Part shown: one piece after another, positions 15,271 to 43,644 of the stretch
Numbering within the stretch: the stretch's first letter is position 1
Layout: each line of letters opens with the position of its first letter
Assembly (NCBI RefSeq): GCF_964222135.1
Contig: NZ_CAXQBR010000030.1
Span: forward strand, 53,460 to 99,514
Source: Euzebya sp.
Lineage (GTDB): Bacteria > Actinomycetota > Nitriliruptoria > Euzebyales > Euzebyaceae
DNA length: 46,055 nt
Direction: 5' to 3'
Position numbers and translations under genes: made by a program
Notes under the pieces: generated by a model
Databases searched by the model: none
Told to the model about the DNA's origin: nothing
The model's input: the letters and a program-made list of their open reading frames with translations, nothing else

Positions 15271-16296
15271 ATGACCACCCCTGCGGTCCTACTTGACCAT
15301 GCCCGCCGCTACCTCGGGGTCACCGAGTCGCCTGCCGGGTCGAACCGGCAGCCGTTCGCGGCGATCGCCGGGCACGCCAACGGCTACGCCTGGTGCGCGA
15401 CCTTCGGCGTCGCCATGCAGATCCTCGCCGGCCTCGACCCGGTGTCGCGGTCGGCGTACACCCCGCAGGTCGCCGTCGACGCCGCCCGCACCGGCCGCAC
15501 CGTCCCCCTCGCCGACGCCCAGCCGGGCGACCACGCAGTCGTCGACTTCCCCGGCGGCAAGGGACGCATCGAGCACTACATCATCCTCGAGAAGCCGCTC
15601 GGCGGCGGCCGCTGGCAGACCATCGAGGGCAACACCTCCGGCGCCGGCTCCCAGACCAACGGCGGCGCCGTGCTGCGGAAGACCCGCGACCTGGGTGGGA
15701 TGGTCCGCGTCGTGGTGTTCCGGCCCCGCTACACGGGCGCGGCCGCCGGCGGCGGTCCCACCCGGCCGGAGGGCGCGATCCTGATGCTGGGCGACTCGGG
15801 CGACGCCGCGGTGATCTGGCAGCAGCAGCTGAACCACGTCGCCGACGCCGGTCTGGTCGTCGACGGCGAGTACGGCCCCCTCACCCGCGCCGCCACGCTC
15901 GCCTGGCAGGCCACCCGCGGGCTGCCGCTGTCGGGGATGGTCGGCGCCGGCGATGTCGCCTCGATGGAGGCTCACTACCGCGAGCTCGAGCAGGCTGGCC
16001 GGCCGGTCGAGCCGGATCCACAGCCTGACCTGGAGGTGGCGGTGAGGTACGCCTCCGGTCATCCGGTCGATGAGCGGATCGCCCGCGGGCTCGCCGCCAC
16101 CCTCCACGTCCACGTCGGCCCGCTCGCCGCCCGCCAGCGCGTCGGCCGCGTCTACCTGGTCGGCGGCCCTGCGGTCGACGGGTTCGACCGGCAGCTCGCC
16201 GGCGATGTCGTCGAGCTCGCCGGCCCCACCCGCGCCGAGACGCACGCCGCGGCGAACGCCGTCGAGCTCGCCTACCTGAAGGGACTGGCCGCATGA
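15271..16296 (+). CDS. Endolysin: CHAP amidase/peptidase, peptidoglycan-binding domain, CWB2-like C-terminus
   Basis: A 341-residue endolysin beginning at ATG 15271 after a CTGAGGAG ribosome site (the frame extends upstream to 15088 but that part is not protein-like). Residues 1-150 are a CHAP/NlpC-like hydrolase with catalytic Cys42 (YAWCATFG) and His102 (IEHYIILEK). Residues about 168-236 are a PG_binding_1 domain (LMLGDSGDAAVIWQQQLN, DGEYGPLTRAATLAWQATRG). Residues about 257-341 resemble one CWB2 unit: VYLVGGPAVDGFDRQLAG then AGPTRAETHAAANAVE, matching the GG-P and AG-x-R-x-T-A landmarks. It cuts host peptidoglycan for lysis; the holin overlaps its stop. Confidence 0.86.
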   Translation: MTTPAVLLDHARRYLGVTESPAGSNRQPFAAIAGHANGYAWCATFGVAMQILAGLDPVSRSAYTPQVAVDAARTGRTVPLADAQPGDHAVVDFPGGKGRIEHYIILEKPLGGGRWQTIEGNTSGAGSQTNGGAVLRKTRDLGGMVRVVVFRPRYTGAAAGGGPTRPEGAILMLGDSGDAAVIWQQQLNHVADAGLVVDGEYGPLTRAATLAWQATRGLPLSGMVGAGDVASMEAHYRELEQAGRPVEPDPQPDLEVAVRYASGHPVDERIARGLAATLHVHVGPLAARQRVGRVYLVGGPAVDGFDRQLAGDVVELAGPTRAETHAAANAVELAYLKGLAA

Positions 16297-16550
16297 CCTG
16301 GGACGACCCCACCGGACCGCCGCCGCCGCCGGGCGCACAGCCGGTGCCGACCGCCTGGTGGTACGCGTACCGGCCCAACCCGAAGGTCGCCGCGGCGATC
16401 GTCACCGTGGTGATCGCCGGCCTCGCGCTCGCCCTGCTGCGCGCGATCGGGGTCGTCGACATGGACCTCGACGCGTTCCTCGCCCTCGTCGGCGGCGGGG
16501 CGGGCACCGCCGCGGTGGCGTACATGCGGCCCGACGCGAGCGGCCGCTGA
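16293..16550 (+). CDS. Holin-like membrane protein
   Basis: An 85-residue protein overlapping the endolysin (ATGA). It has a Pro-rich N-terminal tail (TGPPPPPGAQPVP), then two hydrophobic segments (about residues 33-50, AAAIVTVVIAGLALALLRA, and 60-78, AFLALVGGGAGTAAVAYM), and a short charged C-terminus. Size, two membrane passes and position directly behind the endolysin are those of a phage holin, which permeabilises the membrane to release or activate the endolysin at a set time. It is recognised by context rather than by a family signature. Confidence 0.7.
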   Translation: MTWDDPTGPPPPPGAQPVPTAWWYAYRPNPKVAAAIVTVVIAGLALALLRAIGVVDMDLDAFLALVGGGAGTAAVAYMRPDASGR

Positions 16551-16552
16551 CC

Positions 16553-16876
16553 GTGTCCGCCATTCCACCACCCCCGGGCCGCGATGAAGGGGTCACGCTC
16601 GGGGAGATCGCCCGACGGCTGGACCGCAACGAGCAGGAGAGCTCGAAGCGGTTCGACCGGCTCGAGGAACGCATCGAGGGACTCCAGTTCGTGCCTGTCG
16701 GCACCTACACCGCCGAGCGGCAGGCGTTGGAGGCGTCGATCAAGGAGGCACGCGACGACATCGACGGGGTCATCAACGACCGCAAGGACGACCGTCGGCT
16801 GATCTGGGGCTCGTTCGTGTTCCCGATCCTCGTCGCGATCGTCACGGCGGTCGCCCTCGCGGCGGTGGGATTGTGA
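16553..16876 (+). CDS. Coiled-coil protein with C-terminal membrane anchor (lysis cassette)
   Basis: A 107-residue protein with GTG start 16553, two bases after the holin stop. Residues about 13-70 are a charged heptad-like helix (LGEIARRLDRNEQESSKRFD, LEERIEGL, YTAERQALEASIKEARDDID). Residues about 84-107 form a single hydrophobic segment (WGSFVFPILVAIVTAVALAA) at the very C-terminus. A tail-anchored coiled coil next to a holin recalls the DUF7201/XhlA-type accessory lysis proteins. It overlaps the next gene (GTGA at 16873). Exact role unknown. Confidence 0.62.
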   Translation: MSAIPPPPGRDEGVTLGEIARRLDRNEQESSKRFDRLEERIEGLQFVPVGTYTAERQALEASIKEARDDIDGVINDRKDDRRLIWGSFVFPILVAIVTAVALAAVGL

Positions 16877-17469
16877 CCCGGCTGCGCGCGTTCGGGCGGT
16901 GGCTGGCCGACTGGCGCACCGGTGTCGGGTTCGCCGCGGTGCTGGTCGCCGGCGGGTTCCTGGCGCTCGTCATCGGTCTGCTGGCGTCACGTCAGGAGGC
17001 GTTCGACCGTCTCGACCAGGCGCTCGGCCAGCTCGAGGTCGAACTCGAACGTGAGGAGCAGCTGCAGGGCCGCGTCACCGACCTGTCTGCGGAGGTGGCC
17101 ACCCTGACCGAGCAGGTCCGCGTCCTCGTCCAACAGCTCGAGGACGCCGGCATCGTCCCCCTCCTCATCCCACCCGTCGACCCGCCACCCGTCGGCGAGC
17201 CTGCGACCCCGGACGGCGAAGCGACCTCGTCACGCGACCCGCCCCCACCAGCTGCCCCACCCGGCTCCGAGCCCGGTCCAGCACCGGCACCCGACCCGGT
17301 CCCACCAGCTCCACCACCGCCTCAGCCAGCCGACCCACCCGGGGAGCCGACCCCGGATCCACCTGCTGGGGCCGTCGGCGAGCTGCTCGACGGCGCCGGA
17401 GACCTGGGCGACGACACCCTCGACGACGTGGGCGACACCACCTGCACGCTCACCGACATCCTGTGCTGA
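16873..17469 (+). CDS. Signal-anchored coiled-coil, proline-rich protein (possible spanin-like)
   Basis: A 198-residue protein with GTG start 16873 overlapping the previous stop. One N-terminal membrane segment (VGFAAVLVAGGFLALVIGLL, about 17-36) is followed by an outside coiled coil (about 42-95, EVELEREEQLQGRVTDLSAE) and a long proline/alanine-rich stalk (about 97-165). It ends with a helical, acidic segment (ELLDGAGDLGDDTLDDVGD) and a C-terminal pair of cysteines (TCTLTDILC). The topology, a membrane-tethered rod reaching into the wall zone, resembles spanin-type or Rz-like lysis proteins. It ends the lysis operon; the stop codon lies at the edge of a terminator hairpin. Confidence 0.55.
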   Translation: MTRLRAFGRWLADWRTGVGFAAVLVAGGFLALVIGLLASRQEAFDRLDQALGQLEVELEREEQLQGRVTDLSAEVATLTEQVRVLVQQLEDAGIVPLLIPPVDPPPVGEPATPDGEATSSRDPPPPAAPPGSEPGPAPAPDPVPPAPPPPQPADPPGEPTPDPPAGAVGELLDGAGDLGDDTLDDVGDTTCTLTDILC

Positions 17470-17952: not shown

Positions 17953-18021
17953 CACCTCTGTCGACATCCGGGATCCCGCGTGCAGCCCGGGTCTGTAACT
18001 CCCAGATGCGGTTTCCAGATG

Positions 18022-18067
18022 ACTCATAATCGATTGGTTGCGGGTTCGAGCCCCGCCCGGCCCACAA
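18022..18067 (+). repeat. Attachment site, left copy (tRNA 3' half)
   Basis: A 46-bp sequence running from ACTCATAATC to CGGCCCACAA, identical to 30497-30542. It has the parts of a tRNA from the anticodon loop (CAT) through the T arm (GCGGG TTCGAGC CCCGC) to the acceptor 3' strand CCGGCCC-A. No matching 5' half (expected GGGCCGG acceptor strand) lies upstream, so this is a junction copy, not a tRNA gene. The intact tRNA is predicted beyond the left window edge. Confidence 0.88.
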
Positions 18068-18131
18068 AACGCCTCTGACCAGCACTTTCGCTTCACTTCG
18101 GCGAGATCGTCCGGTAGCGTACCGCTCAGAC

Positions 18132-18140
18132 AGCAGATAA
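18132..18140 (+). repeat. AGCAGATAA motif, copy 1
   Basis: AGCAGATAA followed by an A/T-rich GGACGGAATTTT stretch, 65 bases inside the left att repeat and upstream of the integrase ATG. The surrounding CCGCTCAG is shared with copy 2. Candidate arm-type site or integrase promoter element. Confidence 0.5.
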
Positions 18141-18190
18141 TGGACGGAATTTTGGACCCGTCCAGAGAGCGGAAACGGGGCGGTTCTCGG

Positions 18191-19087
18191 ATGAGATCGC
18201 GGAGCCAGATCGAGGCGTTGAGCCGGTCCTTCTCGCGGTGGCTTCGAGCCGCGAACCGGTCCGAGCGAACGGTCGAGACCTACGTGTCCTCGGTGGCCCA
18301 GCTGGTCGACTTCGCCGAGGACCGGGACCTGGATCCGCTGGCCCGCGAGACGGTCACCGAGTACCTGGCCGACCTCGCGGATCGGCGCAAGCCGGCGACG
18401 GTCGCGTTCCGGTATCGGTCGCTGCAGCAGTTCTTCAAGTGGCTCGAGGCCGAGGAGGAGGTCGAGCACTCCCCCATGGCGAAGCTGCGGCCGCCGCGGG
18501 TGCCCGAGCAGCCGGTGCCGATCCTGTCGCCGGACCAGCAGCGGGCGCTGCTGGGGACCTGTGACGGCAAGAACTTCGTCGACCGCCGCGACCACGCGAT
18601 CCTGCGGCTGTTCATCGACACGGGCATGCGGCTGGGCGAGATGACCGGCATCACGTTGCCTGACGTGGACCTGGACGTCGACAAGGTCGTGTGGGTCACG
18701 GGCAAGGGCAACTGGATGCGGGCGTGTCCGTTCGGGCGCCGGACGGGGATGGCGATCGACCGGTACCTGCGGGTGCGGGCCCGCCACCAGCACGCGCAGG
18801 AGGCCGCGCTGTGGCTCGGCGCGCAGGGCCGCGGGCCGCTCGGGTCCTCGGGCATCAACCAGATCGTCAAGCGGCGGGCGGAGCAGGCCGACATCCCCCG
18901 CCTGCACGCCCACATGTTCCGCCACACCTTCGCCGACAACATGCGCCGGGCGGGGATGGACGACGACAGCCTGATGCGCCTGGCCGGGTGGCGGTCACGC
19001 CAGATGCTGTCGCGCTACGGCGCCTCTGCCGCGGACTCCCGCGCCCGCGAGCGCTACCAGTCCATGGCCCCCGGCGACGCCCTCTGA
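18191..19087 (+). CDS. Tyrosine recombinase (site-specific integrase, XerC/D-like)
   Basis: A 298-residue integrase starting at ATG 18191 (an in-frame ATG at 18140 would add 17 residues; the open frame to 18038 runs through the att site and is not coding). Residues about 8-90 are the SAM-like core-binding domain (TVETYVSSVAQLVDFAEDRD). The catalytic domain shows Arg147 (TGMRLGEMTG), a Lys in the VTGKGNWMR hairpin, H241-x-x-R244 (HMFRHTF), Trp267 in the place of the second His (GWRSRQ) and nucleophile Tyr276 (LSRYG). It would integrate the element at the adjacent tRNA sequence. Copies of AGCAGATAA lie on both sides of the gene. Confidence 0.93.
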   Translation: MRSRSQIEALSRSFSRWLRAANRSERTVETYVSSVAQLVDFAEDRDLDPLARETVTEYLADLADRRKPATVAFRYRSLQQFFKWLEAEEEVEHSPMAKLRPPRVPEQPVPILSPDQQRALLGTCDGKNFVDRRDHAILRLFIDTGMRLGEMTGITLPDVDLDVDKVVWVTGKGNWMRACPFGRRTGMAIDRYLRVRARHQHAQEAALWLGAQGRGPLGSSGINQIVKRRAEQADIPRLHAHMFRHTFADNMRRAGMDDDSLMRLAGWRSRQMLSRYGASAADSRARERYQSMAPGDAL

Positions 19088-19258
19088 TCACCGCCCCGTC
19101 CCGCCGCGACACGAGCACACCGCTCAGCAGATAACAGTCGGAAAAACCTGACACAAGCGGCCCCTCTCCCCCGTCTACCAGGACACACGTCTTGCACAGG
19201 CGGACGGCAGGGAGGCAGCAGGTCGGATGTCAGGGACCCAACAGACCGGGTGCGGCCG
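19088..19258 (+). other. Integrase-relaxase intergenic region, candidate oriT
   Basis: 171 bases upstream of the relaxase. It holds AGCAGATAA copy 2 (19126-19134), then an inverted repeat CCTGACA (19147-19153) / TGTCAGG (19228-19234). The origin of transfer of MobF elements commonly lies next to the relaxase gene, so this is the best place to look. No nic site can be named from sequence alone. Confidence 0.35.
19126..19134 (+). repeat. AGCAGATAA motif, copy 2
   Basis: AGCAGATAA followed by CAGTCGGAAAAA, 39 bases after the integrase stop and preceded by CCGCTC as in copy 1. Together with copies at 18132 and 30422 it forms a set located at the two element ends. Confidence 0.5.
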
Positions 19259-22200
19259 GTGACGGTGTCGATGCGGGTGATGTCCGCCGGCGCCGGCTAC
19301 CGGTACCTCCGCGATTCGGTTGCCGTGGGCGACGCCGTCCGTGAGCCCGGACGGGGGCTGGCGGACTACTACACCGCCGAGGGCTGTCCGCCGGGCCGTT
19401 GGCTCGGCTCAGGACTGCCGGGCCTGGGCAGCGGAGAGCTGCGAGCGGGTGTGGTGGTCACCGAGGAGCAGGTGGCGCGCCTGCTGGGTCAGGGCCGCGA
19501 TCCGCTCACAGGCGATCCGTTGGGACGCGCTTACCCCCAGTACCGGTCGCGGGCGGAGCGGATCGCCGACCGCGTCGCCGAGCTCGACCCGAACCTGGAC
19601 GACGACGCCCGCGCAGCTGCAGTCGAGCGGATCGAGCATGAGGAGTCGCAACGGCGTGGCCGGCGTGCGGTGGCCGGGTTCGACCTGACCTTCAGCGTCC
19701 CCAAGTCGGTCTCAGTGCTGTGGGCCCTCGCCGACCCCGACACCCGCGCCCAGGTGGTCGAAGCCCACCACGCCGCGATCGTCGACGTGATCGACCTGCT
19801 CGAGCGGGAGGTCGCCGCCACCCGGATGGGCGCCTCCGGACCGGACGGTGCGGTCGCCCAGGTCCCGGTGGCTGGGGTGATCGCGGCGGCGTTCGACCAC
19901 TACGACTCCCGCGCCGGCGACCCGCAGCTGCACACCCACGTCGTGGTCGCGAACAAGGCCAAGACGGTCCTCGACGGGCGCTGGCGGGCGCTGGACGGCC
20001 GGCCGGTGCATGCGGCGATGGTGGCGCTGTCCGAGCACTACAACGCCGTCCTCGCCGACCTACTCACCGACACCCTCGGCGTCGTCTGGACCCAGCGCGA
20101 CCGCGGCGCCGATCGCAACCCGGCGTGGGAGATCGCCGGTGTGCCCAGGGAGCTCCTCGACGTCTTCTCGTCCCGCACCACCGACATCCAGGTTGCGAAG
20201 GACGAGCTGATCGCCGAGTACGTCGCCACCCACGGCCACCAGCCGTCGGCGACGACCGTCTTGAAGCTGCGCCAGCAGGCCACGCTGGCGACCCGGCCGG
20301 ACAAGACCCTGCACTCCCTCGCCGACCTCACCGGCCGCTGGCGGACAACAGCGGAGTCGCGCGGCCACTCCCCCGCCGACTGGCTGACCCCGGTCCTGGG
20401 CGGCAGGTCGCAGCAACGGCTGCGCGCGGGCGACCTGACGCCGGCGACCGTCGAGGGGATCGCCGCGACCGTGGTCGAGATGGTGGGTGAGCGTCGTTCG
20501 ACGTGGCGCAGATGGAACCTGCACGCCGAAGCCACCCGCCAGCTCATGGGCATCCGCTTCGCATCAGTGCACGACCGCGAGACCATCCTCGCGAGCGTCG
20601 TGCACGCGGCGGAGCGTGCGTCGGTGCAACTCACCCCGCCCGAGCTCGCGTCGGTCCCGGTGGAGCTGCGCCGTGAAGACGGCACCAGCATGTTGCGCCC
20701 GCGGCACTCAGAGGTGTTCACCTCCGCCGAGCTCCTCGCGGCCGAGGACCGTCTGCTCCAGCTATCCAGGGCGACGCACGGACCGCAGGTCCCGGCGGTC
20801 ACGATCGCGTACCACGGCCAGGACCTCGGCAACGATCAGCTCGAGGCCCTCGTGAGCATCGCGACCTCCGGGCGCGTCTTGGACGTTTTGATCGGTCCTG
20901 CAGGTGCGGGCAAGACCACCGCGATGCGCGCCCTCCGCGCCGCGTGGACCCACCTCTACGGCCCTGGGACGGTAGTCGGCCTGGCGCCATCGGCGGCGGC
21001 CGCCGAGGTCCTGGCCGCCGACCTCGAGATCGACACCGAGACCACCGCGAAGTGGCTCCACGAGCTCCAGGCCGGCAAGGCCCGCTTGCATGCCGGGCAG
21101 CTGGTGATCGTCGACGAAGCCTCCCTCGCCGGCACCCACACCCTGCACCGCATCGCCACCGCCACAGCCGGCGCGGACGCCAAGCTGCTCCTCGTCGGCG
21201 ACCCCGCCCAGCTCGCCGCGGTCGATGCCGGCGGCGCGTTCAGGTTGCTCGCGACCGACCGTGACGATGTCGCCGAGCTCACCGACGTCCGACGCTTCCA
21301 CCACGACTGGGAGAAGCACGCGTCCCTGCAGCTGCGCGACGGCAATCCCGCCGTGATCGACACCTACGACCGACAGGGACGCCTGATGGACGGTTACCTC
21401 GACGCGATGCTCGACGCCGCCTACGACGCCTGGCGAGCAGACCTCGCCGCGGGCAAGACCAGCCTCCTCATTGCCCCCACCCGGGAGCACGTGACCGCCC
21501 TCAACCAGCGTGCGCATGCTGACCGGGTCGCCGCCGGCGACGTCGACGCTGCAGTGGTCGTGCGACTACGCGACCACACGTTCGCCGGGGTCGGCGACGT
21601 CATCGTGATGCGCCGCAACCACCGCCAGCTCACTAACACGTCAGGCCGCTGGGTCCGCAACGGCGACCGCTGGACCGTCTCCTCGATCTACCCCGATGGC
21701 ACCCTCACCGTCCGCGGAAACGGCGGCACCGTCCAGCTGCCGGCCGAGTACGTCGCCGACCACGTCGAACTGGGCTACGCCGTCAGCGCCCACCGTGCCC
21801 AGGGCGCCACCGTCGACACCGCCCACGCCATCGTCACGCCCGCGATGACCCGCGAGACCCTCTACGTCGCCATGACCCGCGGCCGGGTCTCGAACACCGC
21901 TTACACCGCCACCGCCGACGCCGACCTCGAGCTTCATCAGGACGACGGCGAAGACGCCACGGGTCGGCATGTGCTGGCCGGCGTGCTCGCTCGCGTGGGC
22001 GCGGAACAGTCCGCCCACGAGACCCTCCGGGAGGAGCAGGACCGCTGGGGCACCATCGCCCAGCTGGCGGCGGAGTACGACACGATCGCCGCCGCCGCCC
22101 AACACGACCGCTGGACCCAACTGATCCGAGCGTCGGGTCTCACCGACGACCAGGCCAACCAAGTCCTCACCTCCGAGGCCCTCGGTGCCCTGTCAGCCGC

Positions 22201-22771
22201 GCTGCGTACCGCCGACGCCCACCACCTCAACCCCGAAGAACTGCTCCCAAAGCTCCTTGACGACCGCGACCTCGATGACGCCGACGACATCGCCGCCGTC
22301 CTGCACCACCGCGTCACCACCGCCACGACCCGCCTCGCCGCGACCCGGCGCCGGCCACCGGACCTGATCGCGGGTCTCATCCCCAAGGCCACCGGTCCCA
22401 TGACCCCCGACACGCGCACCGCCCTGGACGAACGCCGGCAACTCATCGAGCGGCGAGCCCGCAGCCTCGTCGAGACCGCGACCGCGCAACGCGAGCCATG
22501 GCTCCGCCACCTCGGATCCGTACCTCAGAACTGGCATAGCCGCGACCGGTGGGTCCGCACAGCGACCACCGTCGCCGCGTACCGCGACCGCTACCGCATC
22601 ACCACCACCGACCCGCTCGGCCCCGACGCGGCCAACGAGCTGCAGCGTGCCGATGCCGCCCGAGCCCGCGCGGCCATGAACCGACTGCGCCTGGTCCGCG
22701 CCTTGGACCCGGGTACCGCGACGAGTCGGCCAGTTCAGCGAGACTCACCCAGGCTCGGTCGGTCATTGTGA
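19259..22771 (+). CDS. MobF (TrwC/TraI-like) conjugative relaxase-helicase
   Basis: A 1170-residue protein; GTG 19259 (MTVSMRVMSAG) fits the actinobacterial TrwC start better than GTG 19250. The relaxase domain (about 1-300) has the tyrosine pair Y37-Y38 (LADYYTAEG) then PPGRWLGSGLPGLG, FDLTFSVPKSVSVLW, and the three metal-binding histidines H214, H225 and H227 (FDHYDSR, QLHTHVVVANKAK) with the same 11- and 2-residue spacing as TrwC. The helicase half has Walker A GPAGAGKTT (about 546-554), Walker B VIVDEAS (D619-E620), GDPAQL, and AVSAHRAQGATVD with YVAMTRGR near 855-885. It nicks oriT and unwinds the transferred strand. No coupling protein or T4SS gene accompanies it. Confidence 0.93.
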   Translation: MTVSMRVMSAGAGYRYLRDSVAVGDAVREPGRGLADYYTAEGCPPGRWLGSGLPGLGSGELRAGVVVTEEQVARLLGQGRDPLTGDPLGRAYPQYRSRAERIADRVAELDPNLDDDARAAAVERIEHEESQRRGRRAVAGFDLTFSVPKSVSVLWALADPDTRAQVVEAHHAAIVDVIDLLEREVAATRMGASGPDGAVAQVPVAGVIAAAFDHYDSRAGDPQLHTHVVVANKAKTVLDGRWRALDGRPVHAAMVALSEHYNAVLADLLTDTLGVVWTQRDRGADRNPAWEIAGVPRELLDVFSSRTTDIQVAKDELIAEYVATHGHQPSATTVLKLRQQATLATRPDKTLHSLADLTGRWRTTAESRGHSPADWLTPVLGGRSQQRLRAGDLTPATVEGIAATVVEMVGERRSTWRRWNLHAEATRQLMGIRFASVHDRETILASVVHAAERASVQLTPPELASVPVELRREDGTSMLRPRHSEVFTSAELLAAEDRLLQLSRATHGPQVPAVTIAYHGQDLGNDQLEALVSIATSGRVLDVLIGPAGAGKTTAMRALRAAWTHLYGPGTVVGLAPSAAAAEVLAADLEIDTETTAKWLHELQAGKARLHAGQLVIVDEASLAGTHTLHRIATATAGADAKLLLVGDPAQLAAVDAGGAFRLLATDRDDVAELTDVRRFHHDWEKHASLQLRDGNPAVIDTYDRQGRLMDGYLDAMLDAAYDAWRADLAAGKTSLLIAPTREHVTALNQRAHADRVAAGDVDAAVVVRLRDHTFAGVGDVIVMRRNHRQLTNTSGRWVRNGDRWTVSSIYPDGTLTVRGNGGTVQLPAEYVADHVELGYAVSAHRAQGATVDTAHAIVTPAMTRETLYVAMTRGRVSNTAYTATADADLELHQDDGEDATGRHVLAGVLARVGAEQSAHETLREEQDRWGTIAQLAAEYDTIAAAAQHDRWTQLIRASGLTDDQANQVLTSEALGALSAALRTADAHHLNPEELLPKLLDDRDLDDADDIAAVLHHRVTTATTRLAATRRRPPDLIAGLIPKATGPMTPDTRTALDERRQLIERRARSLVETATAQREPWLRHLGSVPQNWHSRDRWVRTATTVAAYRDRYRITTTDPLGPDAANELQRADAARARAAMNRLRLVRALDPGTATSRPVQRDSPRLGRSL

Positions 22772-23062
22772 TAGCGGGGGATCTCCTAGAGGCCAGGCAT
22801 GCGCGCAACTCGCCCTATCTGCTCAATCCCACAAGGCCGTGCCGGGCCAGGGCGCTGTGGAGCCTTCTGGAGCGGAACTGGCTTCCCCTTGCGGGCGTGA
22901 ACGATGCAGCCGGCCACGGCAAGGCCGTGTCGGGCGACGGCGGTCTCGATGGGATGACGGCGTGGTGCTCGCGGGGGGTCCGTGTGGCGATGACGCTCGG
23001 GACGACGGTGCGGTGGTGACGACTCGACGGCTGGCCGGCAAATAGGCTACGCCCCTGCGGCC
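22772..23062. other. Gap without recognisable gene
   Basis: About 290 bases between the relaxase stop and the IS3 relic. Open frames here have no ribosome site and look non-protein-like. A GATCTCCTAG-type patch right after the stop resembles GATCCCC after the relaxase relic at 26282-26298, consistent with shared ancestry of the two relaxase 3' flanks. I see no RNA gene. Confidence 0.5.
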
Positions 23063-23307
23063 GACAACTCCGCCATGGGGAGCTTCTTCGCCCACCTTCA
23101 ACACAACGTCTTGGGACCGTGGCCACTGGGCACTCGGGACGACCTGCGCCTCGCATCCTGGTCTGGACCGAGCGGACTGACGACCGACGACACCGCCAAG
23201 CGCGGCTCGGCCGGTTGACCCCTATCGAGTACGAGTCGATCATGCCCACACCCGCCTGCGGCGGCCTAACCCATCTGCCGGGCGGAACGTGCACCAGTAC
23301 CTATTGA
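23063..23307 (+). pseudogene. IS3-family transposase (OrfB) 3' relic
   Basis: Decayed end of an IS3-type DDE integrase. The first frame reads DNSAMGSFFAHLQHNVLG, matching the DNAAMESFFALLQ region of IS3 OrfB, then TRDDLRLASW, where functional copies have TREELRLAIVTWIE. After a frameshift the other frame reads HRQARLGRLTPIEYESIM, the standard C-terminal motif. Start, DDE motif and OrfA are missing. It lies directly upstream of the secreted CWB2 gene, so an old IS insertion may have accompanied or provided expression for it. Confidence 0.8.
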
Positions 23308-23370
23308 CAATCGGGAGAGGTGGTGGTTGGGTCCGGATGGCGGTAGGAACTTCGTGAAGGGTGGGGCGGT

Positions 23371-25269
23371 ATGGCGGGCGGGCATCGCGCAGTTTTCTGC
23401 GTCTCCTTGGCGTTCATCTTGAGCATGTTCTGGGTCCCTGCGGGTGCACAGGCTGGGCGGTCATCCATTATCGGAGATGATGCAACGTCTCCCGCGGACC
23501 AGGCGATCGCCATCAGCCGGGCCACCTTTGTCGCAGCCGACGAAGTAGTCATCGCACGAGCCGACGTCTTTGCAGATGCTTTGGCCTCGGGAGGGGCCCA
23601 GGTCGGCTCCCGTCCGCTCCTGGCAACACCCGGCGAGGCACTACCAGCTTCCGTGGCTCAAGAGATACGGAGACTTGAAGCCTCATCCATCATAATCCTT
23701 GGAGGCCCCGACGCCGTCTCCGAGGAGATCGAACAGGACCTTCAAGCGCTCGACGTATCCGTGCGCCGCATAGCGGGCCCGTCCCGAATCGAGACGGCCA
23801 CTGCGCTTGCGTCTGAACTCTTACCGCGCGCAACAACGGCCATACTTGTCCGCGCCTTTGGTGCGGGTAGCCAAGCGTACGTTGACTCCATCGCAGCTGG
23901 CTCGCTAGCAGCTCACAGTTCCTCACCAGTCATCTTCACGGACACGGATGAGCTCAGCGCGCCCACTGCTGAGTTCTTGCAGTCGTCCGAGATTGAGCAT
24001 GTAGTCATCGTGGGAGGAACGGACTCCATCTCGACTGAGGTGGAGAAGACACTCCAGTCCTTGGACTTGGACACCACCCGTCTCGCGGGCGCTGAGAGGG
24101 CTGGGACGGCCACTGCTATCGCCAGCCACGTGGGCTTTAACGACGCTACGAGCGCTCTTCTAGTGGACGGCAGCGACACCCCCGGTGCCTGGTTGCCCGC
24201 CTTCGCGGCTGCCGGCTTCTCCGCTGTACGAAACGTGCCAGTCCTGCTCACCACTCCGGGGGGGCTCCCAGCCGCCACAGAGGCATACCTCTCAGAGCAC
24301 GCATTTGAACTCGTGACCTGCATGCCGCCGGTCACAGTGGCCGCGTGCACTAGTGCTACGGGTCAGGATCCAGTCCCCCACTCGACGGTGGATCCGGAGC
24401 ATGCTCTGCTGGTTGAGGCGACAGATGCCGCAACTGCGGGAGAGGACCTCAGTCTGTCCGAGGAGGAAAGGATCCAACTGTCGGAGGCGACGGCGGTCGA
24501 CCACTACAGGTTCTTGGTGGATGGCACCGTCGTGGGGCTGCAAGTCCCAGCGGAGGCCGCGTCCCGTTTCTCCGGGCAGTATGAGTTTGGCATCCCCGGA
24601 GTGATCACTTGTTACCCTGGCTACCAGCCCTCACCACCCAGCCTCGCGGGCAATTCTGACATCTCGCCTATCGATCTGCTGCCCGACGTGGATCTCACTG
24701 CCGACACTATATGTGTAATCAATCCCGAAGTGCGTCAAGCCCTCAATGAGTTGTTGACCGCACAGGTACCACTCGACGAGGCACTCAGACTGGTTGCGGC
24801 AAGTATTCCGACTCAAGTCGATCCCGACAACGTTGGCGGCGCATTCGACGCCTTCGAGTCTGGCTCGGGAGGCAGCGGATGCATCACTCGTGACCTCACG
24901 GTGTCGGCATATGCCACAGCCGGGTTCCGCGTCTGGGACTTCACCAACGTGTCCAGCGTGTGCTTCAACGGCTCCACCTTCACGTCCGACAGGTCAGAGT
25001 CATATCCGAATGTGACCACGCCAGGGTCTCTGGGCAGTTGGGAGTACGATTTCGGCAACGAGAACGAAGAGAACCTGGATGCTACGGTCTCCCATGAGCA
25101 AATGGGGCGGTTTATCCAGTGCATTGACGTCAAGGTCATTCCCAACGTTCCGTTGGGCCAGTTGTGTCCTCGCAGTAGTACCGCGGAGGTCGACTTCCTC
25201 TATGTCTCTCTTAGCGGCGTCGACACGGGGTACATCTGGCATGCTGTAGGCATCGTGGTCCCCACGTAG
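23371..25269 (+). CDS. Secreted protein with N-terminal cell-wall-binding repeat 2 (CWB2) array
   Basis: A 632-residue exported protein. The signal peptide is about 1-28 (VFCVSLAFILSMFWVPAGAQA). Residues about 40-315 hold three CWB2 units, each with a FADAL or SIAAG segment, an IIILGGPDAVSEEI or VVIVGGTDSISTEV hairpin and an IAGPSRIETATALA or LAGAERAGTATAIA tail. Residues about 330-632 are a novel region with scattered cysteines (VITCYPGY, DTICVIN, GSGCITRDL, SSVCFNG, FIQCIDV, GQLCPRS), perhaps disulphide-bonded. CWB2 domains bind secondary wall polymers in clostridial S-layers. GC content and codon use (ATA, AGA, TTA) are visibly lower than in all neighbours, indicating recent import. GTGGGGCGG precedes ATG 23371. 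Confidence 0.84.
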   Translation: MAGGHRAVFCVSLAFILSMFWVPAGAQAGRSSIIGDDATSPADQAIAISRATFVAADEVVIARADVFADALASGGAQVGSRPLLATPGEALPASVAQEIRRLEASSIIILGGPDAVSEEIEQDLQALDVSVRRIAGPSRIETATALASELLPRATTAILVRAFGAGSQAYVDSIAAGSLAAHSSSPVIFTDTDELSAPTAEFLQSSEIEHVVIVGGTDSISTEVEKTLQSLDLDTTRLAGAERAGTATAIASHVGFNDATSALLVDGSDTPGAWLPAFAAAGFSAVRNVPVLLTTPGGLPAATEAYLSEHAFELVTCMPPVTVAACTSATGQDPVPHSTVDPEHALLVEATDAATAGEDLSLSEEERIQLSEATAVDHYRFLVDGTVVGLQVPAEAASRFSGQYEFGIPGVITCYPGYQPSPPSLAGNSDISPIDLLPDVDLTADTICVINPEVRQALNELLTAQVPLDEALRLVAASIPTQVDPDNVGGAFDAFESGSGGSGCITRDLTVSAYATAGFRVWDFTNVSSVCFNGSTFTSDRSESYPNVTTPGSLGSWEYDFGNENEENLDATVSHEQMGRFIQCIDVKVIPNVPLGQLCPRSSTAEVDFLYVSLSGVDTGYIWHAVGIVVPT

Positions 25270-25340
25270 ACCGGCGCGCACGCGCCAGCTAGCCCTGCGC
25301 ACACGGCATCACAAAGCCGTCGCGTACAGTGGTCGTCTAC

Positions 25341-25598
25341 ATGAACACAGGTGCCGCCCCCTCCCATACGCCTCCAGGCTTGTTGGCCATGATCTTCGGC
25401 GTCTTGTCATTCGTCGTGCTTCCGGTGGTGGGTGGCGCATTGGCTCTGTTCTTCGCCCGCAGGTCACGGCTGGAAGGTGAATCCCGACATGGTGCGGACT
25501 ACACGTATGGACGGGTCGGCCAGGTGCTGGGGGTAGCGAACCTGGTTCTTACCGCCCTCTTCATCGGGTTCTTCATCCTCTCCGGCGTGCGTGCGTGA
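25341..25598 (+). CDS. Small DUF4190-like membrane protein
   Basis: An 85-residue protein with two hydrophobic segments (about 14-36, LLAMIFGVLSFVVLPVVGGALAL in part, and 59-80, VLGVANLVLTALFIGFFIL) around a basic loop (ARRSRLEG). Gly at the turn of the first helix and a GQVLGVANLVL second helix match the DUF4190 pattern of actinobacterial membrane proteins. The start is ATG 25341; GTG 25329 is an alternative. It lies 71 bases behind the CWB2 gene and shares its less GC-rich character, so it may have travelled with it. Confidence 0.62.
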   Translation: MNTGAAPSHTPPGLLAMIFGVLSFVVLPVVGGALALFFARRSRLEGESRHGADYTYGRVGQVLGVANLVLTALFIGFFILSGVRA

Positions 25599-25679
25599 GG
25601 GCACCAGGTCAAACTAGGGAGTGGGGTTAGCGCTGCGCTGGCCGACCTCGACCTCAGCACGAAGTTCGGGTCCCCCGCT

Positions 25680-25925
25680 ACCGAGCGGAGGTCGCCGAGA
25701 TCTTCAGCCGAACGACATCGCCTTCACGTACCAGCCGATCGTGACCCGTCACGCCGCCGAGGCCGCCCCGGACACCTACGCAGGCCTGTGGCTGGACGGC
25801 CACGCCGGTGGTGGGCTTCGCATCGCCTTCACCACCGATGCCGATCGCCATGACAATCGGTCGTCCAGAGCCTGGCGGAGTTCAGCGCCGTCCGCGCCCG
25901 TGTCGGTTGCCCGCCTGCCCCCAGA
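25680..25925 (+). pseudogene. Frameshifted relic of an actinobacterial secreted-protein domain
   Basis: One frame reads NDIAFTYQPIVTRHAAEAAP then TYAGLWLDGHAGGGLRIAFT. A shifted frame continues VVQSLAEFSAVRARVGCPP. The AGLW-[LI]D ... hydrophobic-AF pattern resembles a domain found near the N-terminus of actinobacterial secreted peptidase-like proteins, but I do not recognise it with certainty. Start codon and downstream part are missing and the frame is broken. It directly abuts the relaxase relic. Confidence 0.5.
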
Positions 25926-25929
25926 AGCG

Positions 25930-26282
25930 CAGCGCCCTGAACGAACGCCAACAGCTCATCGAACAGGAGCCCGTCGCCTCGTCGAGACCGCCATGGCCAA
26001 GCACGAACCGTGGCTCCGCTACCTCGGAGTCGTACCCAGACCTGACACGGCCGCGACCGGTGGTTCCGGACGGCGACCACCATCGCCGCCTACCGCGACC
26101 GCCACAACATCGCCTCCAACGATCGACTCAGCACGCCGCCGACCATGGGCGCACAACGGACCGATGTGGCCTACGCCGACAAGGCCCTCAACCAGCTGCG
26201 CCTCCATCGTTACCCCCGATCACGCGGCGAGTCGAGCACGACCCATCGGCCGGATACACCCGGCCTCGGTCGACCGTTCTGA
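25930..26282 (+). pseudogene. Relaxase (MobF) C-terminal relic
   Basis: This stretch is a diverged, frameshifted copy of the last part of the relaxase gene (compare 22405-22771). Shared segments include ALNERQQLIEQ (relaxase ALDERRQLIERR), LVETAMAKHEPWLRYLGVVP (LVETATAQREPWLRHLGSVP), then RTATTIAAYRDRHN-type text in another frame, and NQLRLHR near the end. The TGA at 26280-26282 is followed by GGGGGATCCCC, like the region after the intact gene. It is evidence of an earlier MobF element at the same locus or of a partial duplication. Confidence 0.82.
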
Positions 26283-26386
26283 GATCGGGGGATCCCCCAT
26301 GGCGCCGGACGAGGCGGAGTCTCCGTGCGGGACCGCCCGCAATTCACGTCCACGGTCTGGGTGTCCGTCGCGCATGCATCTGCCGT

Positions 26387-26416
26387 CTAGGGCCTCCCGG
26401 CCACGGGTCGCCCTAG
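26387..26416. terminator. Hairpin downstream of the LysM gene
   Basis: CTAGGGC (26387-26393) pairs with GCCCTAG (26410-26416) around a 16-base loop. It lies 140 bases beyond the 3' end of the reverse-strand LysM gene and after the relaxase relic. A weak terminator is possible; no U-tract. The rest of 26283-26555 shows no gene. Confidence 0.35.
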
Positions 26417-26555
26417 ATGAGCGAGTACCGGAGGCGGCCGCGATCGCACGATGCGCCTTACCAACAAGACGAACCCGCGCTGCGTGAGGGACGGGACCCG
26501 CGGCGGCAGGCCCAGGGCAAACGCGATCCGAGATCGGATCCCCCGCCGTGGCGGT

Positions 26556-27968
26556 CTACGGCTCCCAAAGGTCCATGGTCACCGCCGTGACCGCACCGTC
26601 CTCGTCGATGAAGAGGTCGACGGTGAACCATTCGGTGCACGACGACGTGTCCTCTGGCTGGATCCACAGGCGTCGCATGTCCTCCAAGCCCTCCGGCGGC
26701 GGAACAGGCGGTGAGGCGCAGTGGGGATGTGTACCCGCGCCGAAGGCCAACAAGAAGGAAGTGTCGGCGATGAGTTCCAAGGGGTTGAACGGACCGGTGT
26801 AGGCGCGGAATCCCTCCGCCTCGATGGACCAGACCGGCCCGGAGACCTCCTGGGAGGTGAAGGTGGCGCTGGGTGGTCGGTCAGCGAGGTGAAGAGAGAC
26901 CGAGTCGGCCCAGCGCAGCACTGTCGGTCGGCTCGGGAAGTGGGCGAACTGGACGAATGCGTCGAGCAAAGCCCGTTCGTCCTCGCCCAGGGCGGCCTGC
27001 TCCTCCTCACCCGGCGTGGTGCCGGCGGTGTCCGCGGGCGCTGTCGTGGACGACTGGGTGGCGCCCTGCGGGCATCCGGGGATGGTGAGCTCCCGCCCTG
27101 TGGTCAGTGGGTTGTTCCCATTCAGACCGTTGGCCTGGGCGATGACGCCGAACCTGCTGGGATCGCCGTACACGGCCTCGGCGATGCTGGCCAGCGTGTC
27201 GCCGGGCTGGATCAGGTAGGTGCGGTCGGGCGCCTCACACTGCTGGTCCGGCGGTGTCGCGAACTCGGTCGGCTGTCGCTGGGTAGAGGCGGCGCAGACC
27301 GCGACGCGCTCGTCGGCCCGGACGCTGCGTCCGTGGTCTGCATACGGCGTGTCGTTTGCGTCGGTCCAGATGCTCGCACGGCGCGCGACGTCGTTGGCGG
27401 CGTAGAGGTACACCTCATCGGGGCGCTCCCACGGCCGCCGAGCCGGCGACTCCAAGGCCATCGGCGCCAACGTGGCATCACGATCCGGGGACACCCACAC
27501 CGCGATGCCACCGGGGCCCAATCCCAAGACGGGAGCGGCGGTCCACCACGTCGGCGTCTCATCCGCCGGACCCTGCACGGACAGCTGCCACACCGGCCCG
27601 GCGAGCACCCAACCGTCGGCCAACCCAGTCTCGATCGCCTCCTGCATGCCCACACCGACCGGGACGTCGACGGTGCCTCGACGCGCCGCGGCATCCACCT
27701 GCTCACAGGCCTCGTCGACTCCGTCCACCGCTGGGACCCTCCCTGAGGGGGACGGTAGTGGGGGCGGTCCGAGGAGCACCTCGTCACTGCCGGGTTGCAG
27801 CGCCACCACCACACCGGCACCGACCATGAGGACCACGAGGGCCGACACGACCCCCTGAACGCGTCGACGGCGACGCCGAAGCCGATCCGCACGCCCGTGC
27901 ACATCGGCCATCGAGAACCCGGCGGTGCGGGGTTCGCCGTCCCACAGAGCCTCACCGAGATCAGGCAT
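26556..27968 (-). CDS. Transmembrane LysM protein, probable anti-sigma factor partner
   Basis: A 470-residue protein starting at ATG 27968, overlapping the sigma factor stop by 8 bases. A short N-terminal cytoplasmic part (about 1-35, MPDLGEALWDGEPRTAGF) is followed by an arginine-rich stop (DRLRRRRRRV), one membrane helix (about 38-58, GVVSALVVLMVGAGVVVAL) and a large outside region. The latter has a LysM module at about 250-296 (TYLIQPGDTLASIAEAVYGD, RFGVIAQANGL, GRELTIP) and an uncharacterised C-terminal domain (about 320-470). Pairing with an ECF sigma factor and this topology suggest an anti-sigma protein sensing the wall. There is no zinc anti-sigma motif (HxxxCxxC), so the inhibitory role is inferred. 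Confidence 0.68.
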   Translation of the reverse strand: MPDLGEALWDGEPRTAGFSMADVHGRADRLRRRRRRVQGVVSALVVLMVGAGVVVALQPGSDEVLLGPPPLPSPSGRVPAVDGVDEACEQVDAAARRGTVDVPVGVGMQEAIETGLADGWVLAGPVWQLSVQGPADETPTWWTAAPVLGLGPGGIAVWVSPDRDATLAPMALESPARRPWERPDEVYLYAANDVARRASIWTDANDTPYADHGRSVRADERVAVCAASTQRQPTEFATPPDQQCEAPDRTYLIQPGDTLASIAEAVYGDPSRFGVIAQANGLNGNNPLTTGRELTIPGCPQGATQSSTTAPADTAGTTPGEEEQAALGEDERALLDAFVQFAHFPSRPTVLRWADSVSLHLADRPPSATFTSQEVSGPVWSIEAEGFRAYTGPFNPLELIADTSFLLAFGAGTHPHCASPPVPPPEGLEDMRRLWIQPEDTSSCTEWFTVDLFIDEDGAVTAVTMDLWEP

Positions 27969-28458
27969 CCAAGACCACCTCCTCCAGTCCCACATCCCGC
28001 AACGTGGCCAGCGCCTTGTAGGTCAGCGACTTGACCGTGCCTTCCGCACACCCCATCGCCACGGCGGTGTCCGCAACCGAGAGGTCAGCCAGGTAGCGGC
28101 ACGCCACCACCTGGCGATAGCGGGGCGGCAGCGCGGCAACCGCCTCGCGTACCACGACCGCGGTCGTCGTCTGGGGCCCGTGATCGACCGATGCGTCCCC
28201 CGTCGCTCCGTGGCGGGCATACGCCCGGCGCTCCGCTCCTCGGCGTCGCCACCGGGATCGGGCCAGGTTGAAGGCCACTCGGTACACCCACGCCTCCGGA
28301 CGATCCCGCGCACGCACCCGAGACCAGTCCACCAGCGCCCGGGCCATCGCCTCCTGCGCCAACTCCTCAGCGACGCCACGATCCCCGACGTAGAGCGTCA
28401 CGGCAGCGACCAGCGGCCGCGCCAACGGCGCCAGTACCGCATCCGGCGTCTCCTCCAT
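27961..28458 (-). CDS. ECF RNA polymerase sigma factor
   Basis: A 165-residue group IV sigma factor. ATG 28458 (MEETPDAVL) is chosen; upstream codons overlap the broken toxin. Region 2 is recognisable (AEELAQEAMARALVDWSRV, PEAWVYRVAFNLARSRWRRR) and region 4 has LPPRYRQVVACRYLADLS then a helix-turn-helix VADTAVAMGCAEGTVKSLTYKA. It resembles the small actinobacterial SigE-like ECFs. It would direct polymerase to a few promoters when released by the overlapping LysM membrane protein. The partner genes overlap and are surely co-transcribed. Confidence 0.9.
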   Translation of the reverse strand: MEETPDAVLAPLARPLVAAVTLYVGDRGVAEELAQEAMARALVDWSRVRARDRPEAWVYRVAFNLARSRWRRRGAERRAYARHGATGDASVDHGPQTTTAVVVREAVAALPPRYRQVVACRYLADLSVADTAVAMGCAEGTVKSLTYKALATLRDVGLEEVVLDA

Positions 28459-28502
28459 CACCCCATACGATGCACAGACCCCATCAGGAGGTTCACCCAC
28501 AC

Positions 28503-29108
28503 ATTAGAGCGTGCCTGCCGAGCAGTAAGACCGAGGTCCGCGGCGTCCCGCAGGGTGCCGGTCCGGGTCGTGCTGGTCAGCGATCTCGTTGTATGCCCGC
28601 CACTTGCCGACGATCGCCGGCAACAGGTTGGGGATGAGCATGTTCTCGGACCGGCCGTCGTAGCTGATGACCGCTTCCTCGGCATGTGAAAGCAGGTACC
28701 GTCTCCCCCGGGACTTCGAGGGTGTGGGCGGTGGATGGTTCGGTGTGGTCCGTTGAACTTGTCTGGCGCCAACAGATCGACCACCGCGCCATCGCAGTCG
28801 CGGATGAACTGGTGCACGACCTGACCAACCGCCACGTGGGGGCGACCCCGTGGGCGCAGTTGAAGCTGATCGACCAGGGCGTGGGCGAACCGTTCCGTCG
28901 CGTTGGCGAGGGCCACCTGGACATCGACGATCACATCCAGGTCAGTGGTGGTGCGGCGCGGTGTCGCGCCGGCGTGGTGGAGGTGGGCCTGCACCATGAG
29001 CCCACCGATGAGCACCCATCGCGGGAGGTCGTGCCCGGCCATGTCCAGCAGGAGGTTCCACGCGGCGTGTTCTGCCCCTCCCATGGGTGGGACCTCGATC
29101 TCGATCAC
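28503..29108 (-). pseudogene. AbiEii-like nucleotidyltransferase toxin, frameshifted
   Basis: The 5' half is intact: GTG 29108 overlaps the antitoxin stop (GTGA). LIGGLMVQAHLHHAG then TTTDLDVIVDVQVALA forms the GG...D-x-D nucleotidyltransferase core, and DCDGAVVDLLAPDKF the third strand. Near 28730 the frame changes: LEVPGETVPAF lies in a second frame and EEAVISYDGRSENMLIPNLL with PAIVGKWRAYNEIAD in a third, ending at TAA 28503-28505. Read together these make a normal AbiEii/nucleotidyltransferase protein of about 200 residues, so at least two indels inactivated it. Known type IV toxins of this family modify tRNA; this copy should be inert unless the indels are sequencing errors. Confidence 0.78.
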
Positions 29109-29860
29109 GGCGGCGGTCCCATGGACGAAGGGACGTTCGGCCAAGCGACCGACGCGGTGTCGATCGCGCCGAGCAGGACGCGGATGGCCGATACCACTCG
29201 ACCGTCGGCGCGACCGGCGTCGATCGCGTGGTCGAGCAGGTCGGCGGCGACTGCCAGCCGGGGGGACACCTCCAAGCCGTCTAGGAGGGCTGAGTCGTCG
29301 ACAACACGGAGCAGGTGCGTGCCCGTCTCGGAGTCGCGGATCGGCACCGCCGCACGCGCGGCGGTCAAGTCGTCGGCCGCCAGGTAGCCATCCACGTCCT
29401 TGTCGCCGGTCAACCCGTGACCATGGATGCCAGCGCCGGCAACGCCCGACGGGACGACGAGCTCGCGCAACCGGTCAACGCGCGACGGGTGCACGGTCAC
29501 GCGATGGACACAGGCCCGATCTCGGACGACGGCGAGCAGCCGCGCTGGCGCAGCCGAGTCGAGGCGCCGGCGCACCCGGTGACGGGACTTCGGGTCGAGC
29601 GCGTCGAGCAGGCGGTCGTCACCGTCCAGCGCCCGCATGGCGGCCCAGGCGAGTCGGGAGTTCCAGGGGCGGGTCGATGCGTCGGCGATCCCGAGCTCGT
29701 TCATCACCGCACGGCGGGCGACCGAGTCGACGTCGACGAGCCAGCCACTGCCCGTGCGGACGGCGGTGAGCTGTCCCGCCTGGGCGAGCGCGCGGACGCG
29801 GCGTGGCGCGACACCGAGTCGGTCGGCGGCTTCGCTGACGGTCAGCAGTCGCTGGGACAT
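29105..29860 (-). CDS. HTH antitoxin/repressor partner of the AbiE-like system
   Basis: A 251-residue protein starting at ATG 29860 (MSQRLLTVSEAADRLGVAPR). Residues 5-50 are an excisionase/MerR-type helix-turn-helix (LTVSEAADRLGVAPRRVRAL, then a wing TAVRTGSGWLVD). The remaining 200 residues are alpha/beta with no known catalytic motif (HRVRRRLDSAAPARLLAVVR, GYLAADDLTAARAAVPIR, LAVAADLLDHAIDAG). HTH proteins of this type precede AbiEii-like nucleotidyltransferases in actinobacteria and act as antitoxin and autorepressor. The toxin gene overlaps its 3' end but is broken, so this is an orphaned antitoxin. An 8-bp inverted repeat lies just upstream of the start. Confidence 0.72.
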   Translation of the reverse strand: MSQRLLTVSEAADRLGVAPRRVRALAQAGQLTAVRTGSGWLVDVDSVARRAVMNELGIADASTRPWNSRLAWAAMRALDGDDRLLDALDPKSRHRVRRRLDSAAPARLLAVVRDRACVHRVTVHPSRVDRLRELVVPSGVAGAGIHGHGLTGDKDVDGYLAADDLTAARAAVPIRDSETGTHLLRVVDDSALLDGLEVSPRLAVAADLLDHAIDAGRADGRVVSAIRVLLGAIDTASVAWPNVPSSMGPPP

Positions 29861-29861
29861 A

Positions 29862-29895
29862 CCCAACAGCCTACCGGATGCGGAATACTGTTGGG
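29862..29895 (-). promoter_or_regulatory. Candidate autoregulatory operator of the AbiE-like operon
   Basis: CCCAACAG (29862-29869) and CTGTTGGG (29888-29895) form a perfect 8-bp inverted repeat with an 18-base spacer. Its right end on the reverse strand lies 1 base before the antitoxin ATG, so the mRNA is probably leaderless or nearly so and the promoter sits inside the repeat. Such placement is typical for autorepressed antitoxin operons. Confidence 0.6.
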
Positions 29896-30001
29896 CATGG
29901 CGCACGACTGGTAGACGAATCCGGGCCAGATCGGCTGACACAGACGGGCCTCCCGCCCCGTCTGACTCCTCGCTCGCACCCATTCCGACGAGGAGGACCC
30001 T

Positions 30002-30079
30002 GTGAACCCGCACCTGTACGACGACATGGCCCGACCGCGCCCACTCCCCCTGCCCCGCACCGGGACGGCGGCTGCCTGA
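30002..30079 (+). CDS. 25-residue leader peptide upstream of a conserved small ORF
   Basis: GTG 30002 is preceded by a strong GAGGAGGACC ribosome site (29989-29998). The frame encodes MNPHLYDDMARPRP and a Pro/Thr/Ala-rich end, stopping at TGA 30077-30079, which overlaps the ATG of the next gene (TGATG). The good ribosome site belongs to this peptide, not to the next gene, implying that translation of the leader drives translation of the downstream ORF. Confidence 0.55.
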   Translation: MNPHLYDDMARPRPLPLPRTGTAAA

Positions 30080-30357
30080 TGGGACTCACGCCCCAGCAGC
30101 GTTCGATCCGTGCCCGGCTCGCCGCGCACGCCCTGCACGCCAAGACCGATGGCCGCGCCCACACCCGTCCGGCCAGGGACGGGTTCATGCGCCGCTTCGA
30201 GGACCAGGTCGACCCTGACCGCCAGCTCCCCGAGGAGGAGCGGCAGCGACGGGCACAGCACGCCCTGACGGCGCACATGACGATGCTCGCCCTCCGCTCG
30301 GCGAAGGCCCGGCGGAAGGACGCCGGGACGACCCGGAAGCCCTCTGGCGGCGCCTGA
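30079..30357 (+). CDS. Conserved small actinobacterial protein of unknown function
   Basis: A 92-residue protein (MGLTPQQRSIRARLAAHALH, AHTRPARDGFMRRFEDQVDP, LPEEERQRRAQHALTAHM, LRSAKARRK). The pattern of an N-terminal T-P-x-Q-R-x-x-R-A motif, a central R-x-x-F-x-x-x-V-D-P and a C-terminal E-E-R-x-R-R-A-x-x-A segment is a small family common near mobile elements in actinobacteria. It is all-helical and highly charged, perhaps nucleic-acid binding. The start overlaps the leader peptide stop. It is the last gene before the right att repeat. Confidence 0.7.
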   Translation: MGLTPQQRSIRARLAAHALHAKTDGRAHTRPARDGFMRRFEDQVDPDRQLPEEERQRRAQHALTAHMTMLALRSAKARRKDAGTTRKPSGGA

Positions 30358-30418
30358 GCGGTACACTCGAAAACCCTGGAAACGGGGACAGCAATCTATT
30401 GAATTTCAGAGGGGCCTC

Positions 30419-30453
30419 GCGAGCAGATAACACTCGAAGAATTGTCTGCTCGC
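30419..30453 (+). repeat. AGCAGATAA motif copy 3 within a hairpin at the right end
   Basis: AGCAGATAA at 30422-30430 is followed by CACTCGAAGAAT, like copies 1 and 2. Here it is part of a 9-bp perfect inverted repeat, GCGAGCAGA (30419-30427) / TCTGCTCGC (30445-30453). It lies 44 bases before the right att repeat. With the copies near the left end, it fits integrase arm-type or excisionase sites. Confidence 0.55.
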
Positions 30454-30496
30454 CAACTGCAAAACCGCAGGTCGGCACACCGTTGAAACCGATTTA

Positions 30497-30542
30497 ACTC
30501 ATAATCGATTGGTTGCGGGTTCGAGCCCCGCCCGGCCCACAA
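30497..30542 (+). repeat. Attachment site, right copy (tRNA 3' half)
   Basis: Identical over 46 bp to 18022-18067. The 5' flank (CCGATTTA) differs from the left copy and does not complete a tRNA. CGATT-TAACTCAT-AATCG forms a small perfect 5-bp stem across the junction, unlike a true anticodon arm. Confidence 0.88.
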
Positions 30543-30582
30543 CACGCGCCTGGCCACTTCGCGAAGGTTGTGCGCCGCCCAA

Positions 30583-43466: not shown

Positions 43467-43644
43467 CGTCGTCTCCCGGTGTCGTGCGGTCGACGGGGTG
43501 CCGGCCGCGTGAGGCGACGGTAGGCCCGGACCGGCGGGTGGTGCTTCTCCGATCCTGACCATCGGATGACGGATCGCGTGACCCCACGCGCCGCTGCCTA
43601 GCATGCGCGCCGCCAACCCCCCGGAGCGACGAGGAGCGAGACAG

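Follow-up and report, generated by a model that had tools for sequence, protein, structure and literature searches.

A Euzebya prophage endolysin with a C-terminal domain related to a single CWB2 repeat, a putative wall-binding unit

Does the endolysin encoded by a Euzebya sp. (Actinomycetota; Nitriliruptoria) at positions 15271-16296 of the window defined below end in a domain derived from cell-wall-binding repeat 2 (CWB2), a module by which surface proteins are fixed to the wall, and was this domain taken from the surface proteins of the host? Both claims were made in an initial annotation that was based on the sequence alone, and they are followed up here in the window, that is, the whole stretch of 46,055 nucleotides analysed (contig NZ_CAXQBR010000030.1, positions 53,460 to 99,514). 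As far as our literature search shows, CWB2-derived lysin anchors had been reported from no phages other than those of Clostridia, and no lysin studies in the Euzebya lineage were found. We consider, with a probability of about three in four, that the gene encodes an endolysin of a myovirus-type prophage whose tail consists of one shortened CWB2 unit, of the kind present in CTP1L, CD27L and CD16/50L, and that this tail holds the enzyme on the wall.

The endolysin gene and its prophage

The gene, its parts and the adjoining holin-like gene are located as follows.

15271..16296, + strand: endolysin gene, 341 amino acids, with a CHAP-like catalytic domain, a PG_binding_1 domain and a putatively CWB2-derived tail
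15271..15777, + strand: catalytic domain, residues 1-169, matching the endolysin family phrog_21825
15808..15948, + strand: PG_binding_1 domain, residues 180-226 (PF01471)
16021..16293, + strand: C-terminal putative wall-binding domain, residues 251-341 (91 residues), apparently CWB2-derived and of the CTP1L/CD27L type
16132..16251, + strand: core of the detectable CWB2 similarity, about residues 288-327 (tail positions 38-77, window sequence alone aligned to host repeats)
16293..16550, + strand: holin-like gene for an 85-residue hydrophobic protein, overlapping the endolysin stop codon at ATGA

The start at 15271 is supported because a relative with 75% identity, encoded in another Euzebya genome (L024, the same as L026), keeps both the start codon and the frame. 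Residues 2-169 matched the phage endolysin family phrog_21825 (E 4e-25), and distant relatives from other hosts (L025, L032, L048 and L074) share C42 (within WC), H102 and EGNT at residues 119-122 with it. As expected, these conserved residues fit a predicted CHAP-like cysteine hydrolase; the Pfam CHAP model gave no match to the protein. PF01471 matched residues 180-226 with an E value of 9.8e-5 and 22.9 bits, narrowly missing the cut-off of 23 bits, and counterparts of this PG_binding_1 domain were found among solved structures. The tail lies downstream of both domains as a compact single C-terminal unit.

The endolysin gene belongs to the lysis cassette of a myovirus-type prophage. Upstream of it in the window lie tape-measure, LysM, NlpC/P60, baseplate and tail-spike genes; farther left, the contig has genes for portal, protease and capsid proteins, a sheath-domain protein, DnaB and an integrase. 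The holin-like protein contains a hydrophobic segment (maximum 19-residue KD 2.46), and a family search with it gave no match. That the product is an endolysin, as claimed in the initial annotation, was borne out by the phrog_21825 match and the lysis-gene context; the gene encodes a genuine endolysin, predicted to be of the CHAP type by its family match, its Cys/His and EGNT residues and its lysis context. Past the holin-like gene, two more genes (16547-17469) encode membrane-anchored coiled or proline-rich products and may be part of the lysis cassette; the second of them gave no match among PHROG families.

A tRNA-Met gene is located at the left (L062:14386-14461), and copies of its 3' end are present at 18021-18072 and 30497-30547 of the window; two elements are therefore integrated in tandem. 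The first of these is the prophage, which is about 43.7 kb long and has its right end near 18072. Directly adjoining it at the tRNA-Met 3'-end copy is a 12.5-kb integrated element (18021-30547), which encodes an integrase of its own, a TrwC/MobF relaxase and a CWB2 protein with three repeats (23371-25269). The best plasmid relatives of the relaxase, from Microbacterium and related genera, are 53-55% identical, and the element is probably a mobilisable one that carries a surface protein. A prophage related to the one studied here was found in another Euzebya genome (L026, at about 139583-176887 of G001:C4). At the DNA level, the endolysin genes of the two prophages are 79% identical over 1021 bases, and elsewhere only two short matches were found. 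Because the two prophages have so little DNA in common beyond this gene, the endolysin looks to have been swapped between prophages as a module.

Similarity of the tail to CWB2 repeats

The tail contains VYLVGGP at residues 294-300 and LAGPTRAET at residues 316-324. The landmarks GG-P and AGPTR-x-x-T-A, which the initial annotation had assigned to the last 85 residues, are thus present, but the second one reads AGPTRAETH, without T-A, and the GG is unconserved, reading GR in the close relative. A CWB2 profile search, proposed by the same annotation as a check, was negative with Pfam model PF04122 (CWB2), both with the whole protein to E 1 and with the tail alone to E 5, and no CWB2 match came from scanning the tail with Pfam and NCBIfam models. 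The tail comprises one unit at most, as against the three tandem repeats expected for PF04122 and present in the host proteins.

Profile-profile comparison by hhalign was performed between a tail profile, composed of the window tail and the tail of one close relative, and 43 CWB2 repeats of the host, which were compared in the register of the tail, which runs from the first strand of a given unit up to where its successor begins. The correct register sets in behind the first motif, since the tail straddles the boundary between two consecutive repeat units. A host profile in the Pfam register was unconvincing, its score being reached by 53 of 5000 shuffles. In the register of the tail, the tail pair scored 37.4 with a probability of 88%, as compared with 21.0 for the best of 1000 column shuffles and 19.2 for the best of 136 decoys, which were segments of other window proteins. 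The single tails scored 39.9 (window) and 23.7 (relative). The second half of the tail alone scored 38.1 (best of 400 shuffles, 17.0); the first half showed no similarity to CWB2 or CD27L and, against CWB2, scored the same as shuffles. The similarity of the tail to CWB2 is beyond chance, and is confined to the second half (about 40 residues). A search of 101 genomes with this profile gave, apart from the two endolysins, nine weak non-self matches; three of the nine (L057, L051 and L059) proved to be true CWB2 repeats, aligned in register, and most of the remaining matches lie in implausible frames. The tail also matched a profile of seven CD27L-type domains, with a score of 27.9 that none of 500 shuffles attained (best 17.2).

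It is highly improbable, in our judgment, that the resemblance arose by chance in an unrelated small alpha/beta domain encoded by GC-rich sequence. Such an origin would agree with the missing Pfam match, with the shortness of the matching segment and with a profile search of PDB sequences, in which the tail pair yielded just chance-level matches to pyruvate kinase. However, neither the 1000 shuffles nor the 136 decoys reached the observed score, the reciprocal search yields CWB2 repeats in the right register, and two separate groups, host CWB2 repeats and CD27L-type domains, are matched.

AlphaFold modelling of the tail with two close homologues alone failed (pLDDT 33.9), and modelling with 30 CWB2 repeats of the host genome in the alignment (26 from loci and 4 from the window) gave a pLDDT of 85.6; these repeats bias the model towards the CWB2 fold, and it serves as a compatibility test only. 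The closest solved folds were those of CTP1L (5A6S, Z 10.2, 28% identity; 4CU2, Z 9.8) and CD27L (4CU5, Z 9.4). Next came an archaeal S-layer anchor (9FSA, Z 7.3) and SlpA of C. difficile (8BBY, Z 7.1), at values level with those of unrelated folds such as MurR (7.8), and Z values below 8 may come from a common arrangement alone. The model suggests that the tail is compatible with a CTP1L/CD27L-type fold and is closer to endolysin domains than to CWB2 proteins. The proposal of a CWB2-like tail, while unsupported by the Pfam model, is upheld by the profile-profile statistics, the reciprocal search and the fold comparison. Most likely, judging from its sequence, the tail is a single, shortened, CWB2-derived putative wall-binding domain.

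Origin and possible function of the tail

The initial annotation held that the phage had borrowed the surface anchor of its host, and noted two further CWB2 proteins in the window, one of them chromosomal. Both proteins are real and have three repeats each, and the one at 43603-45390 is located outside both integrated elements; its repeats accompany a Laminin_G_3/concanavalin-like domain. The two nearby genes are uninformative on borrowing, however, because CWB2 is abundant in this genome and its sisters, and they were rejected as a sign of it. At least 160 CWB2 matches were found in the host genome (G000). CWB2 is greatly expanded across the genus, with 339-471 first-look candidates per genome in the host and its sisters (G001-G003).

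The tail scored a median of 29.5 (range 17.9-38.5) against random sets of six Euzebya repeats, and 27.6 against six clostridial CWB2 repeats, as compared with the 37.4 obtained with all 43 host repeats; the fit of the tail to Euzebya CWB2 thus about equals or slightly exceeds its fit to clostridial CWB2. No single donor stood out among the host repeats compared. Catalytic-domain relatives in other hosts have other C-termini in place of the tail, and the whole endolysin was found, among 396 genomes of the phylum, only in the two Euzebya prophages, which fits modular acquisition in this lineage. In IMG/VR, close homologues of the tail were limited to one contig, the relative's own prophage, and a tblastn search of phage records with a host CWB2 stretch gave no match. 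It is plausible that the tail was taken from the host.

A different origin, compatible with the proposed wall-anchoring function, would be an old family of wall-binding domains that is specific to phages and common to clostridial and actinobacterial ones, from which, and not from Euzebya, the tail would descend. The nearest folds being clostridial endolysin domains and not CWB2 proteins, together with the direct sequence match of the tail to CD27L-type domains, speaks for such a family. We nevertheless consider it unlikely: CD27L-type domains are far nearer to clostridial CWB2 (40.9; best of 300 shuffles, 18.3) than to Euzebya CWB2, to which their match is weak (median 18.6 with six repeats); the fit of the tail to Euzebya CWB2 is no worse than its fit to CD27L-type domains; the catalytic-domain relatives in other hosts lack the tail; and the common fold may stem from the same shortening. 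It is possible, at somewhat less than even odds, that a CWB2 repeat was captured independently by phages of Bacillota and by phages of Actinomycetota, in each case from the phage's own host, and was cut down in both to one and the same kind of compact, dimerising wall-binding domain. If true, capture and reduction of S-layer anchors would be a general route to endolysin targeting.

With the tail acting as a wall anchor, holin action would come first, and the CHAP-like cysteine hydrolase domain would then cut peptidoglycan, while the PG_binding_1 and C-terminal domains would keep the enzyme on the wall. We infer that the most likely ligand of the C-terminal domain is the secondary wall polymer used by the CWB2 surface proteins of the host; CWB2 members are expected to bind an anionic polymer of this kind. 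By analogy, the tail probably works as a dimer, and not as the three-repeat pseudotrimer of the host proteins.

One further sequence feature lies at the border of the tail.

16032..16044, + strand: possible internal ribosome site, GGAGGTG with an in-frame GTG (V258), at the linker/tail junction

Two such sites (6 nt or longer), including this one, were found in the 7739 codons examined. The sequence raises the suggestion that an internal start here might yield a free tail domain. At the same junction, the relative L024 has GTC and is without a Shine-Dalgarno-like sequence, and the internal start was rejected as a conserved feature. A free wall-binding domain is made from an internal start in CTP1L and CD27L, and in CTP1L the domain controls oligomerisation by way of this secondary translation product (PMC4777826). 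The tail studied here, though CWB2-derived, might have ceased to bind the wall and may mainly serve in oligomerisation or regulation of the enzyme; PG_binding_1 would then bind the wall instead. The presence of a separate PG_binding_1 domain in the same endolysin and the GGAGGTG and GTG at the junction are consistent with such a role, but the relative lacks the internal start, and the domain of CD16/50L binds wall polymer strongly (PMC9045149). We regard this role as quite improbable, and wall anchoring by the tail remains the preferred reading.

Relation to clostridial endolysins and CWB2 surface proteins

The principle of a CWB2-derived lysin anchor has already been published for C. difficile phages (PMC9045149). 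What is new, as far as checked, is its probable occurrence in a Euzebya prophage, together with the host phylum and the combination with a CHAP-like enzyme and a second wall-binding domain. The wall-binding type of CTP1L, CD27L and CD16/50L would extend from clostridial phages to a Euzebya phage, which provides a second case for asking whether phages cut the three-repeat anchor of the host to one unit, and points to adaptation of one and the same anchor by phages of two phyla. The literature search found no studies of the wall polymer and role of Euzebya CWB2 repeats; the tail may become a reagent for finding the polymer bound by CWB2 proteins in Actinomycetota.

CTP1L, from a Clostridium tyrobutyricum phage, and CD27L, from a C. 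difficile phage, also have a single C-terminal unit of about 80-90 residues. They provide the best fold matches of the Euzebya tail (Z 9.4-10.2), and the sequence match to CD27L-type domains lies in its second half. Unlike them, the Euzebya lysin has an actinobacterial host, a CHAP-like catalytic domain, an extra PG_binding_1 domain and an unconserved candidate internal start.

CD16/50L, an endolysin of C. difficile phages, contains a shortened single CWB2-derived wall-binding domain that is missed by Pfam; this domain was described as a remote CWB2 homologue, and experiments demonstrated its strong binding to wall polysaccharide and its dimerisation (PMC9045149). The Euzebya tail is likewise single, slightly shortened, remote from CWB2 and below Pfam detection. 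Binding and dimerisation of CD16/50L were shown by experiment, whereas the Euzebya tail is known from sequence and a model, and the host phylum differs.

Compared with the CWB2 repeats (PF04122) of SlpA, Cwp6, Cwp8 and the Euzebya surface proteins, the tail is one unit as against three in tandem, has a shorter middle and falls below Pfam detection. It has in common with these repeats the second-half pattern VYLVGG...AGxxRxxT and, as far as the model indicates, the fold.
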